This document shows, in pieces, positions 47,552 through 53,356 of a DNA stretch of 64,000 nt. The notes under the pieces were generated by a model that was not told the DNA's origin, did not search any database, and saw nothing but the letters and a program-made list of their open reading frames with translations. How positions within the stretch are numbered: the first letter of the stretch is position 1; the number at the start of each line of letters is the position of its first letter. The position numbers were made by a program, and so were the translations under genes. Source of the stretch: Gemella sp. zg-570 (GTDB lineage Bacteria; Bacillota; Bacilli; Staphylococcales; Gemellaceae); the NCBI RefSeq assembly GCF_018866345.1, contig NZ_CP076443.1:953501-1017500 (forward strand), given 5' to 3'.

Positions 47552-47661
47552 ATAAAACTACTCCTTACTAATAATATAACGCTTTCTAATATGATATCAT
47601 TTTTTTTATAAAAATTCAATATATAAAATAAAATTTTTAAAAATAAATTATCTTAGTATAA

Positions 47662-47943
47662 CTATGATTTGCTTCTTGAAATTCTAATTTGTTCATTTGT
47701 TACCCTCTCTTGATTTAAATAACTTTCATATAGCTGGCTGTTCTCTTGTCTAAACTGCCGAGAATTAAACACATAAGACACACTAGACGGAATATAAGAT
47801 ATACTCGCCCCCTTTGTAAGGTACTTGTCTATACCCTCCTTTTTCATCTCCTGCATTAAGTCCTCTTTTATCCTTGCTATATCCTCCGTTACTTCCTTAA
47901 CTAATTTTTCTTTTGCTTCAAGTTCTCTAAGTAGTTTTTCCAT
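47662..47943 (-). CDS. Small phage-type protein of unknown function
   Basis: 93 residues. The first 40 are highly charged and probably coiled coil ('LRELEAKEKLVKEVTEDI'); the rest is hydrophilic and ends 'RVTNEQIRISRSKS'. It overlaps the ERF gene by 43 bases, in the tight style of phage early genes. I do not recognise the family. Its position beside a single-strand annealing protein suggests a recombination or replication accessory (inference). Confidence 0.6.
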   Translation of the reverse strand: MEKLLRELEAKEKLVKEVTEDIARIKEDLMQEMKKEGIDKYLTKGASISYIPSSVSYVFNSRQFRQENSQLYESYLNQERVTNEQIRISRSKS

Positions 47944-48467
47944 AAAGTCGCCAGCACCTCCCCACTAACATCATTTAACGTTTCATAACCATTAGCCTTT
48001 AACCACTTCGTAACTTGGACAGGGTCAACATTATCATTAATATTTTTTATTATCTCTTCCTTATCTTTTGCCGTATTTGCATCCTTTAAAGCCTGCCTTG
48101 CCTTTCTCTCCTCCTGGTTCTTAGCGTCTATTATATCATTTTCTGCTATCTCTAAGGCGTTCATATACAAGTACCTTTTAGCATAAGTAATAGTCGCCCC
48201 TATATCCTGCATCTTTGCCCCCTCTAACTTCTGTATAGGGCTTGTAAATTGCACCTTCTCGTCCGTCTCATTATCTTTTATAGTCAGCTTGGCCACTTCC
48301 TTATACAAGTCAAAGTGGCTATATAAATCTAAACTTTCAAAAATTTCATTTACCCTTGGTAAAAAATCTTGCAGTTCAAAATACTTAAACTTTTGAAATG
48401 GATTAAGCCCACTTTTCTTTAATTGCTTTTCTTGTAATAACACCCTTGCTTTTTGTAATTTTTTCAC
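47901..48467 (-). CDS. ERF-superfamily single-strand annealing recombinase
   Basis: 188 residues with a GTG start at 48467 behind GGAGG. The ERF core is clear: 'KLQKARVLLQEKQLKKSGLN', 'KYFELQDFLPRVNEIFESL', 'VQFTSPIQKLEGAKMQDIGA' and 'ITYAKRYLYMNALEIAENDI'. A charged C-terminal region follows. ERF proteins anneal single strands during phage replication and recombination. No partner exonuclease or SSB is present. Confidence 0.88.
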   Translation of the reverse strand: MKKLQKARVLLQEKQLKKSGLNPFQKFKYFELQDFLPRVNEIFESLDLYSHFDLYKEVAKLTIKDNETDEKVQFTSPIQKLEGAKMQDIGATITYAKRYLYMNALEIAENDIIDAKNQEERKARQALKDANTAKDKEEIIKNINDNVDPVQVTKWLKANGYETLNDVSGEVLATLWKNYLENLKQKKN

Positions 48468-48479
48468 CGTCTTTACCTC

Positions 48480-48656
48480 CTACTTTCTCCAACCTTCGTT
48501 GTTTACTCCTTCCCACCAGTCTATATTATCCCAAATAAGGGCTATTATCTCGGTTACCTTCTTTTCTGGTAGCCTCTTGCCCAAATTGTATTTTTGCCTA
48601 TTAAGTAGTCTTATTATTTCCCTTTGCTCGTTTAATTCATCTGTTAGTTGTCGCAT
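48480..48656 (-). CDS. Small phage-type protein, 58 residues
   Basis: The leftward frame from ATG 48656 to TAG 48480-48482 reads 'MRQLTDELNEQREIIRLLNR', then 'LPEKKVTEIIALIWDNIDWW' and ends 'NNEGWRK'. The first half is probably a coiled coil. It overlaps the next upstream gene by 13 bases and lies 12 bases before ERF, so the spacing fits a real operon gene. The family is not recognised. Confidence 0.6.
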   Translation of the reverse strand: MRQLTDELNEQREIIRLLNRQKYNLGKRLPEKKVTEIIALIWDNIDWWEGVNNEGWRK

Positions 48657-48847
48657 TTTTTATTTTTCCTTTTTTTGTATATTTCACTAATTGCTCTTAG
48701 CGTTCTATTTATTGCCTTGTCCCAGTCTATACCTAATTTTATTTTTGTTTTCTTTTCTAGTATTTTTAATTCGTATATGTAATGGTGCATTTCTGCCAGG
48801 TCTTCTTTTTTGTTCCTGTCTATTTTTTCTTGTATTGTTTCTTTCAT
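48644..48847 (-). CDS. Small charged helical protein, 67 residues
   Basis: Almost entirely helical and charged ('ETIQEKIDRNKKEDLAEMHH', 'RAISEIYKKRKNKKCDN'). GGGGGAAG stands before the ATG. Its 5' end faces a rightward promoter at 48849-48877. The function is unknown; it is part of the phage-type early cluster. Confidence 0.6.
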   Translation of the reverse strand: MKETIQEKIDRNKKEDLAEMHHYIYELKILEKKTKIKLGIDWDKAINRTLRAISEIYKKRKNKKCDN

Positions 48848-48848
48848 C

Positions 48849-48926
48849 TTGACTTCCCCCTCTTTTTATGCTATCATCTACCTATATATTTAGGTTTGCT
48901 AGTAACTTATGTTGCTAGCTTTTTTA
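48849..48926 (+). ncRNA. Putative small RNA with its own promoter and terminator
   Basis: On the + strand TTGACT (48849-48854) and TATCAT (48872-48877) are 17 bases apart. From about 48884 the transcript would hold hairpin ACCTA/TAGGT (48880-48895) and then a terminator GCTAGTAAC-TTAT-GTTGCTAGC (48898-48919, one G-U pair) with six T residues. The product of about 45 nt is antisense to the spacer between two leftward phage genes and contains no open frame. Confidence 0.5.
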
Positions 48927-49253
48927 TTTGCCTAAACTCCTATTTACTTGACGGTAAGAAGCATTTATATATTCTATGACTTCCCCCATATACACAGCTA
49001 AACGTACTTTATTATACGTACTTACACCGTGGATTGTTAAAACCGCATGTATAAAATATTTCTTGGGTATTCTATCAAATTGTACCCTATCCGTTGAAAA
49101 ATCACGCCGTAAGCCCAAAAGCTTTATCCTTGCCCTTACCTCTTCCTTGCTGGTTTTAAAATGTTTTGCTAAGTCCCTAACTATAAAATGAGGTTGCAAT
49201 TTATACAGATCTACATCCTCTTTCATTTCCCATTTCTTGCTTACTTCTCCCAT
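48924..49253 (-). CDS. Phage-type DNA-binding-like protein, 109 residues
   Basis: The N-terminal half contains a plausible helix-turn-helix ('HFIVRDLAKHFKTSKEEVRA'); the C-terminal half is basic and ends 'YINASYRQVNRSLGK'. I do not recognise the family. It has an AAAGGA upstream and is preceded by a 238-base structured spacer. It may be an early regulator or replication accessory of the element (inference). Confidence 0.6.
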   Translation of the reverse strand: MGEVSKKWEMKEDVDLYKLQPHFIVRDLAKHFKTSKEEVRARIKLLGLRRDFSTDRVQFDRIPKKYFIHAVLTIHGVSTYNKVRLAVYMGEVIEYINASYRQVNRSLGK

Positions 49254-49491
49254 CTTGCCTTTTCCTTTTTTCTTCTAAATCTTTTTTATTGACCAAGTTT
49301 TTACTGATAGCGTAAACTTGTATATTTTTTTCAGTCGACTTTACATTAAACAAAGTAATTTTAGCTAGATGAAATTTTAATGTAAATATAGGTGCCGTGA
49401 AAAATTTATTGAGGAGGCACGCCTGCTGTACTTGCTAAGCCTTCTTTTATCTACTAGCAACAGATAACAAGCTAAAAGTACCGAACCCCCT
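49254..49491. other. Structured non-coding spacer
   Basis: Contains an 11-base inverted repeat TTTACATTAAA / TTTAATGTAAA (49340-49350 and 49376-49386), an AAGTTT/AAACTT pair and a GC-richer stretch with GTACTT/AAGTAC arms. It could be the leader of the leftward mRNA or a small RNA. No frame is visible. Confidence 0.4.
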
Positions 49492-49695
49492 TTAATAAAA
49501 AGGGCTTATGAATTTTTGATTACCTTTATTAACTTTCTTTTTCACAGGCTTCTTTTCGTCTAAATCTCTAAAATCAAAAAACATTGTTAGTACTAAGCCC
49601 CCCAGTATGTACATTAGTGTTCTGAAAGGGTTTAAGCCTTCTTCTACTCCTACAGCTAGAAAAACACCTATTATAAAGCCCCTTACACCTTGCAT
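49492..49695 (-). CDS. Small membrane protein, 67 residues
   Basis: From the ATG at 49695 (GGGGGG stretch upstream) a first hydrophobic segment ('GVRGFIIGVFLAVGVEEGLN'), then a second ('LMYILGGLVLTMFFDF'), and a basic tail 'KKPVKKKVNKG'. The layout is holin-like, but no family is recognised. It lies one base after the stop of an XRE regulator and closes cassette D of the peptide array. Confidence 0.6.
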   Translation of the reverse strand: MQGVRGFIIGVFLAVGVEEGLNPFRTLMYILGGLVLTMFFDFRDLDEKKPVKKKVNKGNQKFISPFY

Positions 49696-49696
49696 T

Positions 49697-49891
49697 TTAC
49701 AGCCCCCCTTCAAATTCTATTTCATCTATGCTTACTCCGTAAACCTGGCTAATCTTTTTTAACCTGTAAAGCCTAACGCTCCTAGTATTTTTTTCATGAT
49801 TATATAAAGAATTTCTACTAATACCTAAAAGCTTCGCCGCCTGCTGGACGCTAAGCCCCTTACTTTCCCTTAATTCCTTCAAAGTAACCAA
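49697..49891 (-). CDS. XRE-family (Cro-like) regulator, cassette D
   Basis: 64 residues with a TTG start at 49891 behind GGAGGTG. A complete helix-turn-helix is seen: 'LRESKGLSVQQAAKLLGISR', then 'NSLYNHEKNTRSVRLYRLKK'. It matches in length and start context (GGAGGTGxxxATTTTG) the regulator at 50378-50572, so the two are probably related. It presumably controls the nearby small genes. Confidence 0.85.
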   Translation of the reverse strand: MVTLKELRESKGLSVQQAAKLLGISRNSLYNHEKNTRSVRLYRLKKISQVYGVSIDEIEFEGGL

Positions 49892-50006
49892 AATAACACC
49901 TCCTTTAAAACCTAATCACCCTTACTTACCCAACGGAAAATTAAAAAACAAAATATAAAAGCTAATAAAAATTGCATTTTCTAAACCAATATGATATACT
50001 TATATA

Positions 50007-50069
50007 CAAAGGGGATTAGCCCCCTTTGCGATGGTTTTTATGCTTTCTGTTTTTTACAGAAGGCTTTTT
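50007..50069 (+). ncRNA. Antisense RNA to peptide D
   Basis: Promoter TTGCAT (49972-49977), 17-base spacer, TATACT (49995-50000); predicted start about 50007, exactly at hairpin CAAAGGGG/CCCCTTTG (50007-50028). The terminator is GCTTTCTG/CAGAAGGC (50042-50064, one U-G pair) followed by five T residues. The RNA of about 60 nt is complementary to the 3' half of peptide gene D. Confidence 0.55.
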
Positions 50070-50159
50070 ATTATTAGTAGCTGTTATTAAACTAGCAATA
50101 CCGGCAAATAAAACACCTAAGCTAGTCAAAAGCTCTGCTAACTCTTTAAAAGTAATCAT
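50016..50159 (-). CDS. Peptide D: type I toxin-like small membrane peptide
   Basis: 47 residues: a membrane helix ('LLTSLGVLFAGIASLITA') then a strongly basic tail ('KPSVKNRKHKNHRKGG'). This is the layout of TxpA/BsrG-type toxins, although sequence identity was not checked. AAGGAG precedes the ATG. The stop codon lies inside a GGGG/CCCC hairpin, and a convergent promoter starts an antisense RNA there. The promoter (50208-50239) has TTGACA and TAGAAT 20 bases apart, with five GAA repeats in the spacer. Confidence 0.6.
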   Translation of the reverse strand: MITFKELAELLTSLGVLFAGIASLITATNNKKPSVKNRKHKNHRKGG

Positions 50160-50207
50160 ACCTTACTCCTTTTTCAAAAACTCGGATTAACTTAACCCTG
50201 TATAAAT

Positions 50208-50239
50208 ATTCTACCTTCTTCTTCTTCTTCTTTTGTCAA
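50208..50239 (-). promoter_or_regulatory. Promoter D with a GAA repeat in its spacer
   Basis: On the leftward strand TTGACA (50234-50239) and TAGAAT (50208-50213) are separated by 20 bases consisting mainly of five GAA triplets. One unit fewer would give the optimal 17. Confidence 0.6.
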
Positions 50240-50300
50240 GCCTTTTTTACAAAAAAAATAATATTTTTTCATCTTTTTTTATAAAAATAGCCAAAATAAA

Positions 50301-50322
50301 AAAAGGAGCTAATGCTCCTTTT
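50301..50322 (-). terminator. Terminator of cassette C
   Basis: AAAAGGAGC and GCTCCTTTT arms with a TAAT loop; T-rich on the leftward strand. It lies about 55 bases after the XRE stop. Confidence 0.8.
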
Positions 50323-50377
50323 AATTGCGTAAACTATTCATAAATAATAATCAGTAAAAAAATAAACTAAGGCTAAT

Positions 50378-50572
50378 TTATATTTTAAAATCAATATCAG
50401 CATAAGTGATATTAAAAAGTTTTTCTATTTTTTTAATATCTGGTACACTAGGGAAATTAATAGCTCTTTCCCACTTGCTCCAAGTCGCAGCGGATATATT
50501 CAAACGCCCAGCCACTTCATCTTGCGACAAATTAAACTTAACCCTTAGCATCTTTAACGTTAATTTTTCCAA
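50378..50572 (-). CDS. XRE-family regulator, cassette C
   Basis: 64 residues from TTG at 50572 (GGGAGGTG eight bases upstream); an in-frame start at 50596 would overlap this site. The helix-turn-helix is textbook: 'LRVKFNLSQDEVAGRLNISA' then 'ATWSKWERAINFPSVPDIKK'. The 35-base gap from the preceding membrane peptide suggests one transcript with peptide C. It is likely the cassette's own regulator. Confidence 0.87.
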   Translation of the reverse strand: MEKLTLKMLRVKFNLSQDEVAGRLNISAATWSKWERAINFPSVPDIKKIEKLFNITYADIDFKI

Positions 50573-50606
50573 AATCTTCACCTCCCTTAAGTTCAAATAT
50601 ATATAG

Positions 50607-50699
50607 CTATACTAACAGTTTATAAAAAGCGTATATAGTAACACATAAAATAAGTATTTTTACAATTACACCACCAATATTTAAAAATAAATCTTTCAT
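50607..50699 (-). CDS. One-helix membrane peptide, cassette C
   Basis: 30 residues ('MKDLFLNIGGVIVKILILCV' then 'TIYAFYKLLV'), nearly all one membrane helix. The ribosome binding site GAGGG is too close to the ATG to be ideal. The case for a real gene rests on its repeated position: similar peptides precede the HTH genes of cassettes A and B. Confidence 0.5.
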   Translation of the reverse strand: MKDLFLNIGGVIVKILILCVTIYAFYKLLV

Positions 50700-50739
50700 C
50701 CCTCTTGTTCTAAACTTAAAAAAATGTTATAATTCAATT

Positions 50740-50874
50740 ATTAGGGGCTTTCGCCCCTATATAATTATTTTAATAATGTTTGTATTATCCACTTAATCAA
50801 ACTAGCTAAAGTTCTAAGTGATAATACCAACAAAACCAACTTGTCGATGAAGTCTTTGATTTCGTCGATTTTTT
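50740..50874 (+). ncRNA. Antisense RNA to peptide C
   Basis: Promoter TTGTTC (50705-50710), 17-base spacer, TATAAT (50728-50733); predicted start about 50740, at hairpin TAGGGGC-TTTC-GCCCCTA (50742-50759). The terminator is TCGATGAA/TTCGTCGA (50844-50868, one U-G pair) followed by six T residues, inside the 5' part of peptide gene C. The RNA of about 135 nt covers almost the whole peptide gene. Confidence 0.65.
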
Positions 50875-50890
50875 CATCTCACTTTTTCAA
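50765..50890 (-). pseudogene. Peptide C: toxin-like amphipathic peptide with an in-frame UGA
   Basis: From TTG at 50890 (GGAGGG eight bases upstream) the frame runs 41 codons to TAA at 50765-50767, but codon 4 is TGA (50879-50881). Beyond it the frame reads 'DEKIDEIKDFIDKLVLLVLS' and then 'LASLIKWIIQTLLK', amphipathic and ending in a Lys, like peptide B. A consensus promoter TTGACA-17-TATAAT (50924-50952) drives it. It is most simply an inactivated toxin whose antisense RNA and flanking genes remain. Confidence 0.55.
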
Positions 50891-50923
50891 GCCTTTAACC
50901 CTCCTTTCTAACTTGATAATAAT

Positions 50924-50952
50924 ATTATACAATATTATATTGTTCTTGTCAA
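50924..50952 (-). promoter_or_regulatory. Promoter of cassette C
   Basis: Perfect TTGACA (50947-50952) and TATAAT (50924-50929) with a 17-base spacer on the leftward strand. It is divergent from the cassette A promoter 85 bases away. Confidence 0.85.
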
Positions 50953-51036
50953 TACTTTTTTCTCTTTTTTAATACTTTTTCTCTTTTTCTATACACTTTA
51001 TTTATGTAAAATATTAAAAAAATCACAAAAAAACAC

Positions 51037-51065
51037 TTGACAAAATCTATCTTATGATATATAAT
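51037..51065 (+). promoter_or_regulatory. Promoter of cassette A
   Basis: Perfect TTGACA (51037-51042) and TATAAT (51060-51065) with a 17-base spacer. A leader of about 45 bases ends in AAAGGAG before the peptide A start. Confidence 0.85.
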
Positions 51066-51116
51066 ATAAACATAAAGTTAATTAACAACTTTAAATAAAA
51101 AAGAAAGGAGAACAAA

Positions 51117-51212
51117 ATGGCAAACAAAAAAAGCTTAAAAATAAAAGAAATAAAATTCACAATACACCTTTTATTTATTAAGCTAACAATAACTATAGTT
51201 GGGGATAAATAA
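51117..51212 (+). CDS. Peptide A: small basic hydrophobic peptide
   Basis: 31 residues: a lysine-rich start ('MANKKSLKIKEIKF') then a hydrophobic stretch ('LLFIKLTITIV'). A strong promoter and AAAGGAG support expression. The stop codon lies in the loop of a long hairpin (AACTATAG...CTATAGTT with GGGGAT/ATCCCC, 51191-51225). A convergent promoter and terminator predict an antisense RNA over the gene. Type I toxin-like by architecture; no known family is recognised. Confidence 0.6.
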   Translation: MANKKSLKIKEIKFTIHLLFIKLTITIVGDK

Positions 51213-51222
51213 TCCCCCTATA
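51126..51222 (-). ncRNA. Antisense RNA to peptide A
   Basis: On the leftward strand -10 TATAAT (51229-51234) with a weak -35 TATACT (51252-51257) at 17 bases; start about 51222 at the hairpin. It ends at arms 51168-51184 and 51132-51147 (about 16 pairs, one bulge) followed by seven T residues, within the first codons of peptide A. The -10 context ATGTTATAAT is the same as in antisense C. Confidence 0.6.
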
Positions 51223-51244
51223 GTTGCCATTATAACATAAAAAA

Positions 51245-51373
51245 ATGAAAAAGTATAGATTATTTAACAAAAATATAACTATTGAACTTAAAAAAACTAC
51301 TAGAAAAGAAAAAATAGAATTTATAGTAGCTATAATTATTACAGGACTAATAATATACTACTTAACGAGGTAA
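51245..51373 (+). CDS. One-helix membrane peptide, cassette A
   Basis: 42 residues: a basic N-terminal half ('LKKTTRKEKIEF') then a membrane helix ('IVAIIITGLIIYYLTR'). The ribosome binding site is poor. It ends three bases before the HTH gene, whose Shine-Dalgarno-like GAGG lies within it. The same peptide-HTH order occurs in cassettes B and C. Confidence 0.55.
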   Translation: MKKYRLFNKNITIELKKTTRKEKIEFIVAIIITGLIIYYLTR

Positions 51374-51376
51374 AAA

Positions 51377-51565
51377 ATGAAAAAAGAAATAGAAGAATTA
51401 CTAAATGGACAAATAACAGCCTATAAAATTTCAAAAGATACAGGAATACCTAACAACAACATATATGCCTTCATGTCTGGAAAAAGAAAAATAGACAACA
51501 TGACGCTAGCCACAGCAGAAAAACTATACAACTACTACAAACAAACAAAAAAAGGGAGCAAATAA
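51377..51565 (+). CDS. Small HTH protein, cassette A
   Basis: 62 residues: 'IEELLNGQITAYKISKDTGI' then 'NNNIYAFMSGKRKIDNMTLA' and 'TAEKLYNYYKQTKK', a compact helix-turn-helix of a type common in Gram-positive mobile elements. Its paralogue in cassette B (53053-53241) shares the LLNGxITAYKI and IxNMTLxTAEKLYxYY stretches. It is probably the autoregulator of the cassette (inference). Confidence 0.75.
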   Translation: MKKEIEELLNGQITAYKISKDTGIPNNNIYAFMSGKRKIDNMTLATAEKLYNYYKQTKKGSK

Positions 51566-51573
51566 GCTCCCTT
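51547..51573 (-). terminator. Shared terminator of the HTH A gene and the endolysin gene
   Basis: AGGGAGC and GCTCCCT arms (51553-51559 and 51566-51572). The leftward transcript continues into seven T residues, so it ends the endolysin mRNA best. The HTH A stop lies in the loop. Confidence 0.85.
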
Positions 51574-51576
51574 AAA

Positions 51577-52266
51577 CTATCTAAAATGGCCAAATTCCAT
51601 TTGGTTTTTATTATCCCTAAAAGTACCAGTCGCAACAAACCTACGCTTACCACTAGAAGAAACATAAGAAACCCACACATAACCATTAGCTATGCAATAA
51701 CTATCATAATTAATAACTTGACCCCTTTTATAAACAGCCACCACTTCACAATCAAGCCTAGGCTCATTTCTAACATTTAAAGACCCAGCCGTAACCGTAA
51801 AATGCCAACTCTCAGGAACCCTTGTCCACTCCCTATCATTTGCACCATCAACATCATAAGGTGGCCTAATAATAGCGGCAACCAAGCCATCATACCTATT
51901 AACAACCCTTGCAGGGCCTCCCTTTGTCAAAGCGTCTGCGTTGCCGTCTACATTTTGCTCAACACAAGTAAGCAAACCTCCATTTACAGCCGTACAAATG
52001 CCAATATGCCCCCAAGGTAAAGTAATATTCCATACCACAATATCACCTGGTTGAATAGTAACCTCACCCTTTTTAAAACGCCTAAAACCAGCTGGCAAAG
52101 CATTATTAACATAATTAATAGCATTACCGTGAACTTTACCGCCCCAATTATCATAAACATAAGCCATAATCAAATCCACACACTGAGAACCATACCAACC
52201 GTCAAAATCAGTACGCCCCCCTATCTTACTTTTTACCCAACTAATCGCTTCTGTCTGTGTTACCAT
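51577..52266 (-). CDS. CHAP-domain endolysin with C-terminal SH3-type binding domain
   Basis: 229 residues from the ATG at 52266 (AAAGGAG upstream). The N-terminal CHAP amidase/endopeptidase has the catalytic Cys in 'DGWYGSQCVDLIMAYVYDNW' and His in 'LPWGHIGICTAV'. The C-terminal SH3_5-like wall-binding domain includes 'HFTVTAGSLNVRNEPRLDCE' and ends 'FGHFR'. No signal peptide is present, as in holin-dependent phage lysins. It is the only lysis gene recognised and is flanked by peptide cassettes A and B on the other strand. It could act in element-driven lysis or release. Confidence 0.9.
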   Translation of the reverse strand: MVTQTEAISWVKSKIGGRTDFDGWYGSQCVDLIMAYVYDNWGGKVHGNAINYVNNALPAGFRRFKKGEVTIQPGDIVVWNITLPWGHIGICTAVNGGLLTCVEQNVDGNADALTKGGPARVVNRYDGLVAAIIRPPYDVDGANDREWTRVPESWHFTVTAGSLNVRNEPRLDCEVVAVYKRGQVINYDSYCIANGYVWVSYVSSSGKRRFVATGTFRDNKNQMEFGHFR

Positions 52267-52429
52267 AAAAAAAACTCCTTTCAAAATAAAAAAGCCAACC
52301 AAAAATTGACTTAAAATTAACTTATAAATTTACTTTTTAAAATAAAATTGCCTTACAAAAGTAAGCCAAAATAACGAATAGCTAACTCTCTTTTCGCTCA
52401 CTACTAAAAGACCACTCACAAAGCCTGTG

Positions 52430-52600
52430 GTAGGCAGTATAACGTACCCCTGTTATACAAAGCACGGAACGGTTAAAAACTACCGAACGGAGTAATCGAT
52501 TAGTTATTAAAACTAACTCCCTATGTTGTGCTTTTTAGGCTTATCGCAAAGGAACAGTTATTAAGCTCTGCCAAGCAGTGTAACGTGCTTCTATTACACT
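52430..52600 (+). ncRNA. Strongly folded non-coding region with a duplicated hairpin
   Basis: GCAGTATAAC...GTTATAC (52434-52458) and GCAGTGTAAC...TTACAC (52575-52599) are two copies of one hairpin; an A-T pair in the first is replaced by a G-C pair in the second. Between them AAAGCAC (52459-52465) pairs with GTGCTTT (52528-52534), enclosing CGGT/ACCG and GGAG-TTAGTT/AACTAA-CTCC stems and followed by T residues. There is no open frame in the 52267-52793 spacer. It may be a structured RNA or a replication/transfer origin. Confidence 0.5.
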
Positions 52601-52742
52601 TCTATATCACTATAGATTTACTAACATTAGTGTTTTAGAAAGAGATAGGTTAAATCACTAAGGATTGGTTTTTATCTCTAAAATCATATTAACAAAATTA
52701 AAATATTTTGTCAAATTTTTTAAAAAAATTCTCTAAAAACTC

Positions 52743-52771
52743 TTGACTTTATGCACCTTTTGCTATATAAT
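52743..52771 (+). promoter_or_regulatory. Promoter of cassette B
   Basis: TTGACT (52743-52748) and TATAAT (52766-52771) with a 17-base spacer; AAGGAGGTG follows within a short leader of about 18 bases. Confidence 0.85.
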
Positions 52772-52793
52772 ATAAATATAAGGAGGTGAGAAA

Positions 52794-52910
52794 ATGAGTA
52801 AGAAAAATAAAAAAAATTCTTCAAACCTACTAATAAAAATTAATATTATTTTAGCCACATTACAAATAATAAATCTTTTAGTAGAATTGTTTGAAAAATT
52901 TTTCAAATAA
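52794..52910 (+). CDS. Peptide B: small amphipathic toxin-like peptide
   Basis: 38 residues: a lysine-rich head ('MSKKNKKNSSN') and a long amphipathic/hydrophobic stretch ('LATLQIINLLVELFEKFFK'). AAGGAGGTG six bases before the ATG and a near-perfect promoter predict strong expression. It is followed at once by hairpin ATAAGG-GGGG/CCCC-CCTTAT (52911-52940), where a convergent antisense RNA is predicted to start. It shares the ending style of peptide C (about 19 hydrophobic residues then Lys-stop). Confidence 0.65.
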   Translation: MSKKNKKNSSNLLIKINIILATLQIINLLVELFEKFFK

Positions 52911-52944
52911 ATAAGGTTGGGGTAAAAGCCCCCTCCTTATATCT
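52812..52944 (-). ncRNA. Antisense RNA to peptide B
   Basis: On the leftward strand TTGTAT (52974-52979), 17 bases, TATGAT (52951-52956); start about 52944 at the GGGG/CCCC hairpin. Arms 52878-52893 and 52822-52833 (CTACTAA/TTAGTAG and CAAAC/GTTTG with a 4-base bulge) are followed by eight T residues near the peptide start codon. Confidence 0.6.
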
Positions 52945-52958
52945 TACTTAATCATAAC

Positions 52959-53042
52959 ATGGACAAAGAAAAAATACAAGTTACAATAATTATACTAGGT
53001 ATAATAGCAACAATAATTTCAATAATATTAAAATTTATTTAG
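52959..53042 (+). CDS. One-helix membrane peptide, cassette B
   Basis: 27 residues ('MDKEKIQVTIIILGIIATII' then 'SIILKFI'), one membrane helix after a short charged head. There is no good ribosome binding site. Its stop lies within the GGGGG that serves the HTH B gene. It is supported mainly by the repeated arrangement. Confidence 0.5.
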   Translation: MDKEKIQVTIIILGIIATIISIILKFI

Positions 53043-53052
53043 GGGGTATACT

Positions 53053-53241
53053 ATGCTTATAGAACATATAGAAAAACTGCTAAACGGAGAAATTACAGCC
53101 TACAAAATAGCTAAAGACTTAGAGATAAACCCTAATATAATTCAACGCTACATAACAGGAGACCGAAAAATAGAAAACATGACCCTAAAAACAGCCGAAA
53201 AGCTATATAAATATTACATAGACACACAAAAAGAGAGTTAA
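53053..53241 (+). CDS. Small HTH protein, cassette B
   Basis: 62 residues, paralogue of the HTH in cassette A: 'IEKLLNGEITAYKIAKDLEI', then 'IIQRYITGDRKIENMTLKTA' and 'EKLYKYYIDTQKES'. It is preceded by a GGGGG ribosome binding site and followed by a terminator. It probably regulates the cassette B promoter (inference). Confidence 0.75.
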   Translation: MLIEHIEKLLNGEITAYKIAKDLEINPNIIQRYITGDRKIENMTLKTAEKLYKYYIDTQKES

Positions 53242-53253
53242 ACACTCTCTTTT
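53228..53253 (+). terminator. Terminator of cassette B
   Basis: AAAAGAGAGT and ACTCTCTTTT arms around the HTH B stop codon, ending in T residues; near the right limit of the phage-like element. Confidence 0.8.
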
Positions 53254-53356
53254 AATTTAGCCTATAATTCTTTTAACAAAGCTTCTTTTAAAATCTGACT
53301 AACATTAATATTTTTTAAAAATCACTACAAATTTGATACTATTTCAAATACAAAAC

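Follow-up and report, generated by a model that had tools for sequence, protein, structure and literature searches.

A small peptide gene of a Gemella-like bacterium is preceded by a promoter whose -35 and -10 hexamers are separated by little other than GAA triplets. The genome is closed (1,558,665 bases), and the window analysed here is a stretch of 64,000 nucleotides from it. The gene, called D, lies in one of four small cassettes of a prophage remnant. A precedent for simple repeats in this position is hifA/hifB of Haemophilus influenzae, where (TA)9-11 between the -35 and -10 elements is associated with phase variation (van Ham 1993, cited in PMC2651432). Is the D promoter a switch of this kind, resting in its OFF length, as a sequence-only reading of the same DNA had proposed? 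Or has the spacer lengthened and left a promoter that is weak and fixed?

On the minus strand, from 50239 to 50208, the promoter reads TTGACA, then AAAGAAGAAGAAGAAGAAGG (20 nt), then TAGAAT (Table 1). The earlier description of hexamers 20 bases apart with a spacer made almost wholly of five GAA triplets is exact, as read from the sequence, and the 17-base spacers that it gave for the other three cassettes were found in their promoters at 51037 (+), 52743 (+) and 50952 (-). Tandem Repeats Finder returns the D tract as period 3 with 6.0 copies and a 100% match, which amounts to 18 nt of perfect triplet, counted as five units in the GAA register and six in the AAG register. No (GAA)5 arose by chance in 100 dinucleotide shuffles of the window. 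The whole genome contains three (GAA)5 sites against four of the reversed control pattern, hence no genome-wide enrichment. The two copies of the D promoter in this genome account for two of the three (GAA)5 sites, and the third is inside a surface-protein reading frame. At the D promoter, the minus strand has no overlapping hexamer pair at 16-18 nt with a comparable score, and an alternative -10 or -35 for D at that distance was rejected for this reason. Also set aside was a coding role for the tract; the 26-aa frame that runs through it (50272-50192) lacks a ribosome-binding site, and nothing corresponding to it occurs in the promoter regions of relatives.

Table 1. Features of the D cassette and its upstream neighbour, in window coordinates.
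Feature	Position	Strand	Remarks
-35 hexamer TTGACA of the peptide D promoter	50234..50239	-	aligns with the -35 of relatives
Spacer AAAGAAGAAGAAGAAGAAGG, 20 nt	50214..50233	-	pure period-3 tract 50215-50232; (GAA)5 at 50216-50230; (AAG)6 overall
-10 hexamer TAGAAT of the peptide D promoter	50208..50213	-	counterpart of TATAAT/TACAAT in relatives
Ribosome-binding site AAGGAG of peptide D	50166..50171	-	read from sequence
Peptide D, 47 aa	50016..50159	-	short N-terminal helix, one hydrophobic segment, basic tail
Hairpin at D gene end, CAAAGGGG..CCCCCTTTG	50007..50028	-	common to all cassettes and relatives
Second tiny membrane peptide, 21 aa, MQFLLAFIFCFLIFRWVSKGD	49912..49977	-	counterparts in loci L007, L008, L026, L075
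Small Cro/C1-type HTH protein, 64 aa, last D-cassette gene	49697..49891	-	HTH_3, E 1.2e-14
Terminator-like hairpin between cassette C and the D promoter	50301..50322	-	sequence
HTH protein of upstream cassette C, 72 aa	50378..50596	-	HTH_3, E 5.7e-10

Peptide D belongs to PHROG 3399, a family of unknown function (E 1.4e-6). The terminator-like hairpin upstream suggests that D depends on its own promoter. Neither D copy shows damage to the reading frame, ribosome-binding site or hexamers, and the next peptide and the HTH gene are also intact in both. No clear ribosome-binding site precedes the second tiny membrane peptide. Between the hairpin and this peptide is a motif, AGTATATCATA (window 50028-49978; L007, L008, L026), that is conserved from Gemella to Streptococcus phages.

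What did this promoter look like before the tract was present? Homologues of D occur in two sister genomes of the Gemella group, in phages of S. agalactiae, S. anginosus and S. constellatus, and in 34 viral contigs. In all 37 other D-family loci (two other Gemella-group genomes and Streptococcus phages, read by script) the spacer is 17 nt long and encloses a full or partial palindrome; these 37 distinct loci are mostly near-identical S. agalactiae prophages and represent about four independent lineages. The promoter in genome G001 is TTGACA-17-TACAAT. The palindrome is TACGA-N6-TCGTA in the Gemella relatives, ATAGTACATGTACTAT or a one-base variant in S. agalactiae and TCACGGTATACCGTGA in S. 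anginosus, and from its sequence is probably a repressor-binding operator. Among the D-family loci read, a 20-nt spacer with GAA and no palindrome is present only in the two copies of the window's genome; the D spacer is free of inverted repeats of 4 bp or longer. When the sequences downstream of the hexamer are aligned, TAGAAT falls at the -10 position of the relatives. Since the spacer is 17 nt in all 37 relatives and 20 nt only here, the longer form is derived, and dropping one triplet would restore the ancestral distance. The earlier statement that one triplet fewer gives the optimal 17 nt is thereby borne out, both by these relatives and by 45 of 87 promoters in the genome itself.

Cassettes of PHROG 3399 in prophages of S. 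agalactiae, S. anginosus and S. constellatus (e.g. LF1, Javan5, Javan73, Javan110) and in Gemella sp. GH3 encode a peptide homologous to that of the window and resemble the D cassette in the hairpin, the second tiny membrane peptide, the small HTH or similar gene, and the promoter position. The D cassette thus has the family plan of peptide, hairpin, tiny membrane peptide and small regulator-like gene. It departs from the family in the spacer, which elsewhere is 17 nt with a palindrome and here is 20 nt with a GAA tract and no operator. Across 398 Bacilli genomes the PHROG 3399 HMM had matches in the window's genome only, and a seven-sequence profile of the D family gave weak matches in other Bacilli.

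The distance of 20 nt is an uncommon one in this genome. TTGACA-N14..23-TANAAT occurs 87 times, 45 times at 17 nt and six times at 20 nt, with a control level of about three such pairs per spacer length, and two of the six are the D copies. Among the genome's 38 unique sites with a perfect TATAAT after TTGACA, none has a spacer of 19 or 20 nt. In synthetic E. coli libraries the optimum is 17 nt, activity is high at 15-19 nt, and above 19 nt it is significantly lower yet above background (PMC8695583). Because such long spacers remain above background, 'weak' is preferred here to 'off'. The proposal that the promoter is in the OFF length therefore holds in that 20 nt is non-optimal, and gives way in that such promoters are weak in E. 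coli, not fully off. Judged by its sequence, the D promoter is probably weakened by the 20-nt spacer. TTGACA/TAGAAT promoters with A/G-rich 17-nt spacers are present at C1:142259, 284554 and 604370 and at two loci of the sister genome G002 (L015, L016), where they precede 16S rRNA; the D promoter minus one triplet would look like these.

Does the number of repeats vary? The alleles compared come from one assembly, its two D copies, and viral contigs. Both copies have the identical tract of five GAA, despite 22 substitutions over the alignable 2.65 kb (about 0.8%), and two scans of the viral contigs with variable-gap patterns found no other allele length. At general bacterial mutation rates a divergence of about 0.8% corresponds to millions of generations, over which a contingency locus is expected to slip many times. 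The identity of the tract at such divergence requires selection, gene conversion or a low slippage rate. In length the tract only just reaches the range of triplets prone to slippage, with five GAA or six AAG units against a cut-off of six in PhasomeIt, a tool made for Neisseria (PMC7371114), and of four in a survey of H. influenzae (PMC2651432). The arrangement is that of a spacer repeat, in that the tract is between -35 and -10 and, from the lengths, one unit would convert a poor spacing to the optimal one. Of the phase-switch proposal, then, the abnormal length and the one-triplet step to 17 nt stand. Actual variation in repeat number was not seen in the second copy or in the viral contigs, and the replaced operator gives a simpler reading.

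The surroundings of D are those of a degraded prophage. The remnant occupies 47.6-53.3 kb of the window (about 6 kb), between a dehydrogenase gene and rpoD, and contains an ERF annealing protein, a CHAP/SH3 lysin, a Bacilli-1 RNA and the four cassettes, each with a promoter, a small peptide, a hairpin, a tiny membrane peptide and a small HTH protein. The same genome has, at 547-601 kb, a 54-kb prophage with counterparts of these cassettes at its two ends, and the second D copy there (548,726-549,078) encodes a peptide with a different C-terminus. Window positions 47655-53260 bring together sequences found at 548030-551573 and 597961-600943, one at each end of the 54-kb prophage, which also has cassette C at either end as a direct repeat. 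Judging by its sequence, the window element resembles a phage of this kind that has lost its body and had its ends joined. A plasmid search gave no match to the element, and in phage records its matches at the DNA level were only near the Bacilli-1 RNA. This RNA (window 52553-52617 (-), Rfam RF02931, 76.5 bits) is between the lysin and a peptide cassette, and is also found near the ends of several Streptococcus phages.

The regulator that may once have acted at the D promoter can be seen in related elements. In the prophage of Gemella sp. GH3 an intact CI-type repressor (L028 2805-2119) is encoded divergently from D, which is the first gene next to it; this fits an early promoter that would be controlled by this repressor through the spacer palindrome. 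Beside the second D cassette of the window's genome is a CI/LexA-like repressor pseudogene with internal stops and a frameshift (C1:547422-547797, L060), and cassette C now lies between this broken gene and D. No repressor remnant adjoins the window's D copy. Peptide C of the window (50890-50765 (-), TTG start, LKK*DEKIDEIKDFIDKLVLL...) has TGA at codon 4, as does the 548-kb copy; in the 600-kb copy the codon is TGG and the gene is intact. A second peptide here thus also looks silenced.

These observations lead us to an account that we hold with slightly better than even confidence: the promoter of D, a prophage peptide gene, has lost its operator and has been down-tuned as triplets lengthened the spacer. 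The sequence, the spacer lengths, the absence of the palindrome and the broken repressor gene of the sister prophage are observed directly. We infer the strength of the promoter, the order of events, the reason for retention and the toxicity of the peptide. The ancestral promoter would have been TTGACA-17-TATAAT with a repressor site in the spacer, strong yet repressible. Repression would have been lost once the prophage repressor gene decayed. The spacer may then have drifted until the palindrome was gone, and the (AAG)6/(GAA)5 tract may have grown by triplet slippage to 20 nt, moving the -35 three bases, or about 100 degrees of helix, out of register and making the promoter weak. With the palindrome gone, D should escape the old mode of repression. 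The longer spacer may have been retained because it keeps an unrepressed and possibly harmful peptide low, and a nonsense codon would have silenced the second peptide, C. Because the window copy lacks a repressor remnant, the sequence of these steps is taken from the sister prophage. Deletion of one triplet could bring the spacer back to 17 nt, which makes the locus revertible in principle; it is treated here as fixed, and the same tract in both copies is as expected of a fixed allele. If D does not switch, it would be a clear natural case of a decaying prophage promoter attenuated by spacer growth. Against down-tuning, an unconstrained promoter should lose hexamer matches, and TTGACA and TAGAAT keep 11 of 12; also, 18 nt of pure triplet at exactly this place resembles a contingency locus.

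How does a true phase switch, with reversible slippage between a low state at five units (20 nt) and a high state at four (17 nt), compare with this account? The position of the tract exactly in the spacer, the return to the spacing of all relatives on loss of one unit, and the intact hexamers all speak for it, and spacer-length switching is established for hifA/hifB in the work cited by the H. influenzae survey (PMC2651432). The genome also has G11 and (TA)10 tracts in promoter spacers, each upstream of a YSIRK surface-protein gene, which makes the mechanism plausible in this organism and is the reason for keeping the switch as an unlikely, not a negligible, explanation. Yet only the five-unit allele was found, in copies otherwise separated by 22 substitutions over 2.65 kb, where typical contingency rates in general would predict many slippage events unless selection or gene conversion intervened. 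The tract is only at the six-unit cut-off for triplets (PMC7371114), triplet tracts of H. influenzae are not in identified promoters (PMC2651432), and prophage peptides are not a usual phase-variable class. A fixed weak promoter is thus favoured over a switch. We consider it very unlikely that, after the CI repressor and the operator were lost, repressor control was exchanged for a heritable slippage switch, by which rare cells would express D (four units, 17 nt) and most would keep it low (five units, 20 nt), in a genome that also uses spacer repeats at surface-protein promoters. If D does switch, it would be a phase-variable prophage peptide promoter with a triplet in the spacer, slippage acting in place of repressor control.

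It could also be that D is already dead and the repeat is an accident without effect. The window element is reduced to about 6 kb of lysin, ERF protein and cassettes, and the broken repressor of the sister prophage, the nonsense codon in peptide C and the altered C-terminus of the 548-kb D agree with neutral decay. However, the frame, ribosome-binding site, hexamers, next peptide and HTH gene of D are intact in both copies, and we regard this explanation as quite unlikely. Even more improbable is a promoter whose hexamers would be brought into register by an activator, MerR-type or other, bound at the GAA tract. Spacers of 19-20 nt are the hallmark of MerR-regulated promoters, which, as predicted for that of D, combine overlong spacing with weak basal activity (PMC1526738), and small HTH genes are present on both sides of D. 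MerR-type sites are strong palindromes, though, whereas the D spacer has none, and there is no MerR-family gene beside it; the adjoining HTH proteins match Cro/C1-type HTH_3. MerR-type activation was rejected on these grounds of missing palindrome and wrong HTH type.

Two further known systems help to place the fixed weak promoter that we favour. As cited, hifA/hifB resembles D in having a simple repeat in the -35/-10 spacer, of which one unit shifts the distance between optimal and poor; it differs in being a dinucleotide repeat that governs a surface structure, while D has a short triplet tract at a prophage peptide gene and no length variant was seen. The vlhA promoters of Mycoplasma gallisepticum contain the same GAA triplet, with repeat number linked to expression; there the repeat precedes the start by about 40 nt, beyond the core promoter, and commonly has 6-12 units, with activity only at 12 (PMC6258824). 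The D tract, inside the spacer and with five units, is not of this type.

The comparison exposed two much stronger candidates for spacer phase variation at surface-protein promoters of this Gemella-like bacterium; a paper search on Gemella with phase variation listed only papers in which Gemella comes up a few times at most. By their sequence, both come much closer than D to classical spacer phase variation. One, a strong candidate at C1:1283103-1283076 (-) (L065), reads TTGACA-AAATC(G)11-TAGAAT with a 16-nt spacer and precedes a large YSIRK surface-protein gene (start 1282978) by about 90 nt; its G11 is the sole run of nine or more G in the genome. The other, at C1:29394-29367 (-) (L066), has the sequence TTGACA-(TA)8-TATAAT, which makes a (TA)10 tract and a 16-nt spacer; it precedes a second large YSIRK surface-protein gene (start 29076) and is like the hifA/hifB switch of H. 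influenzae.
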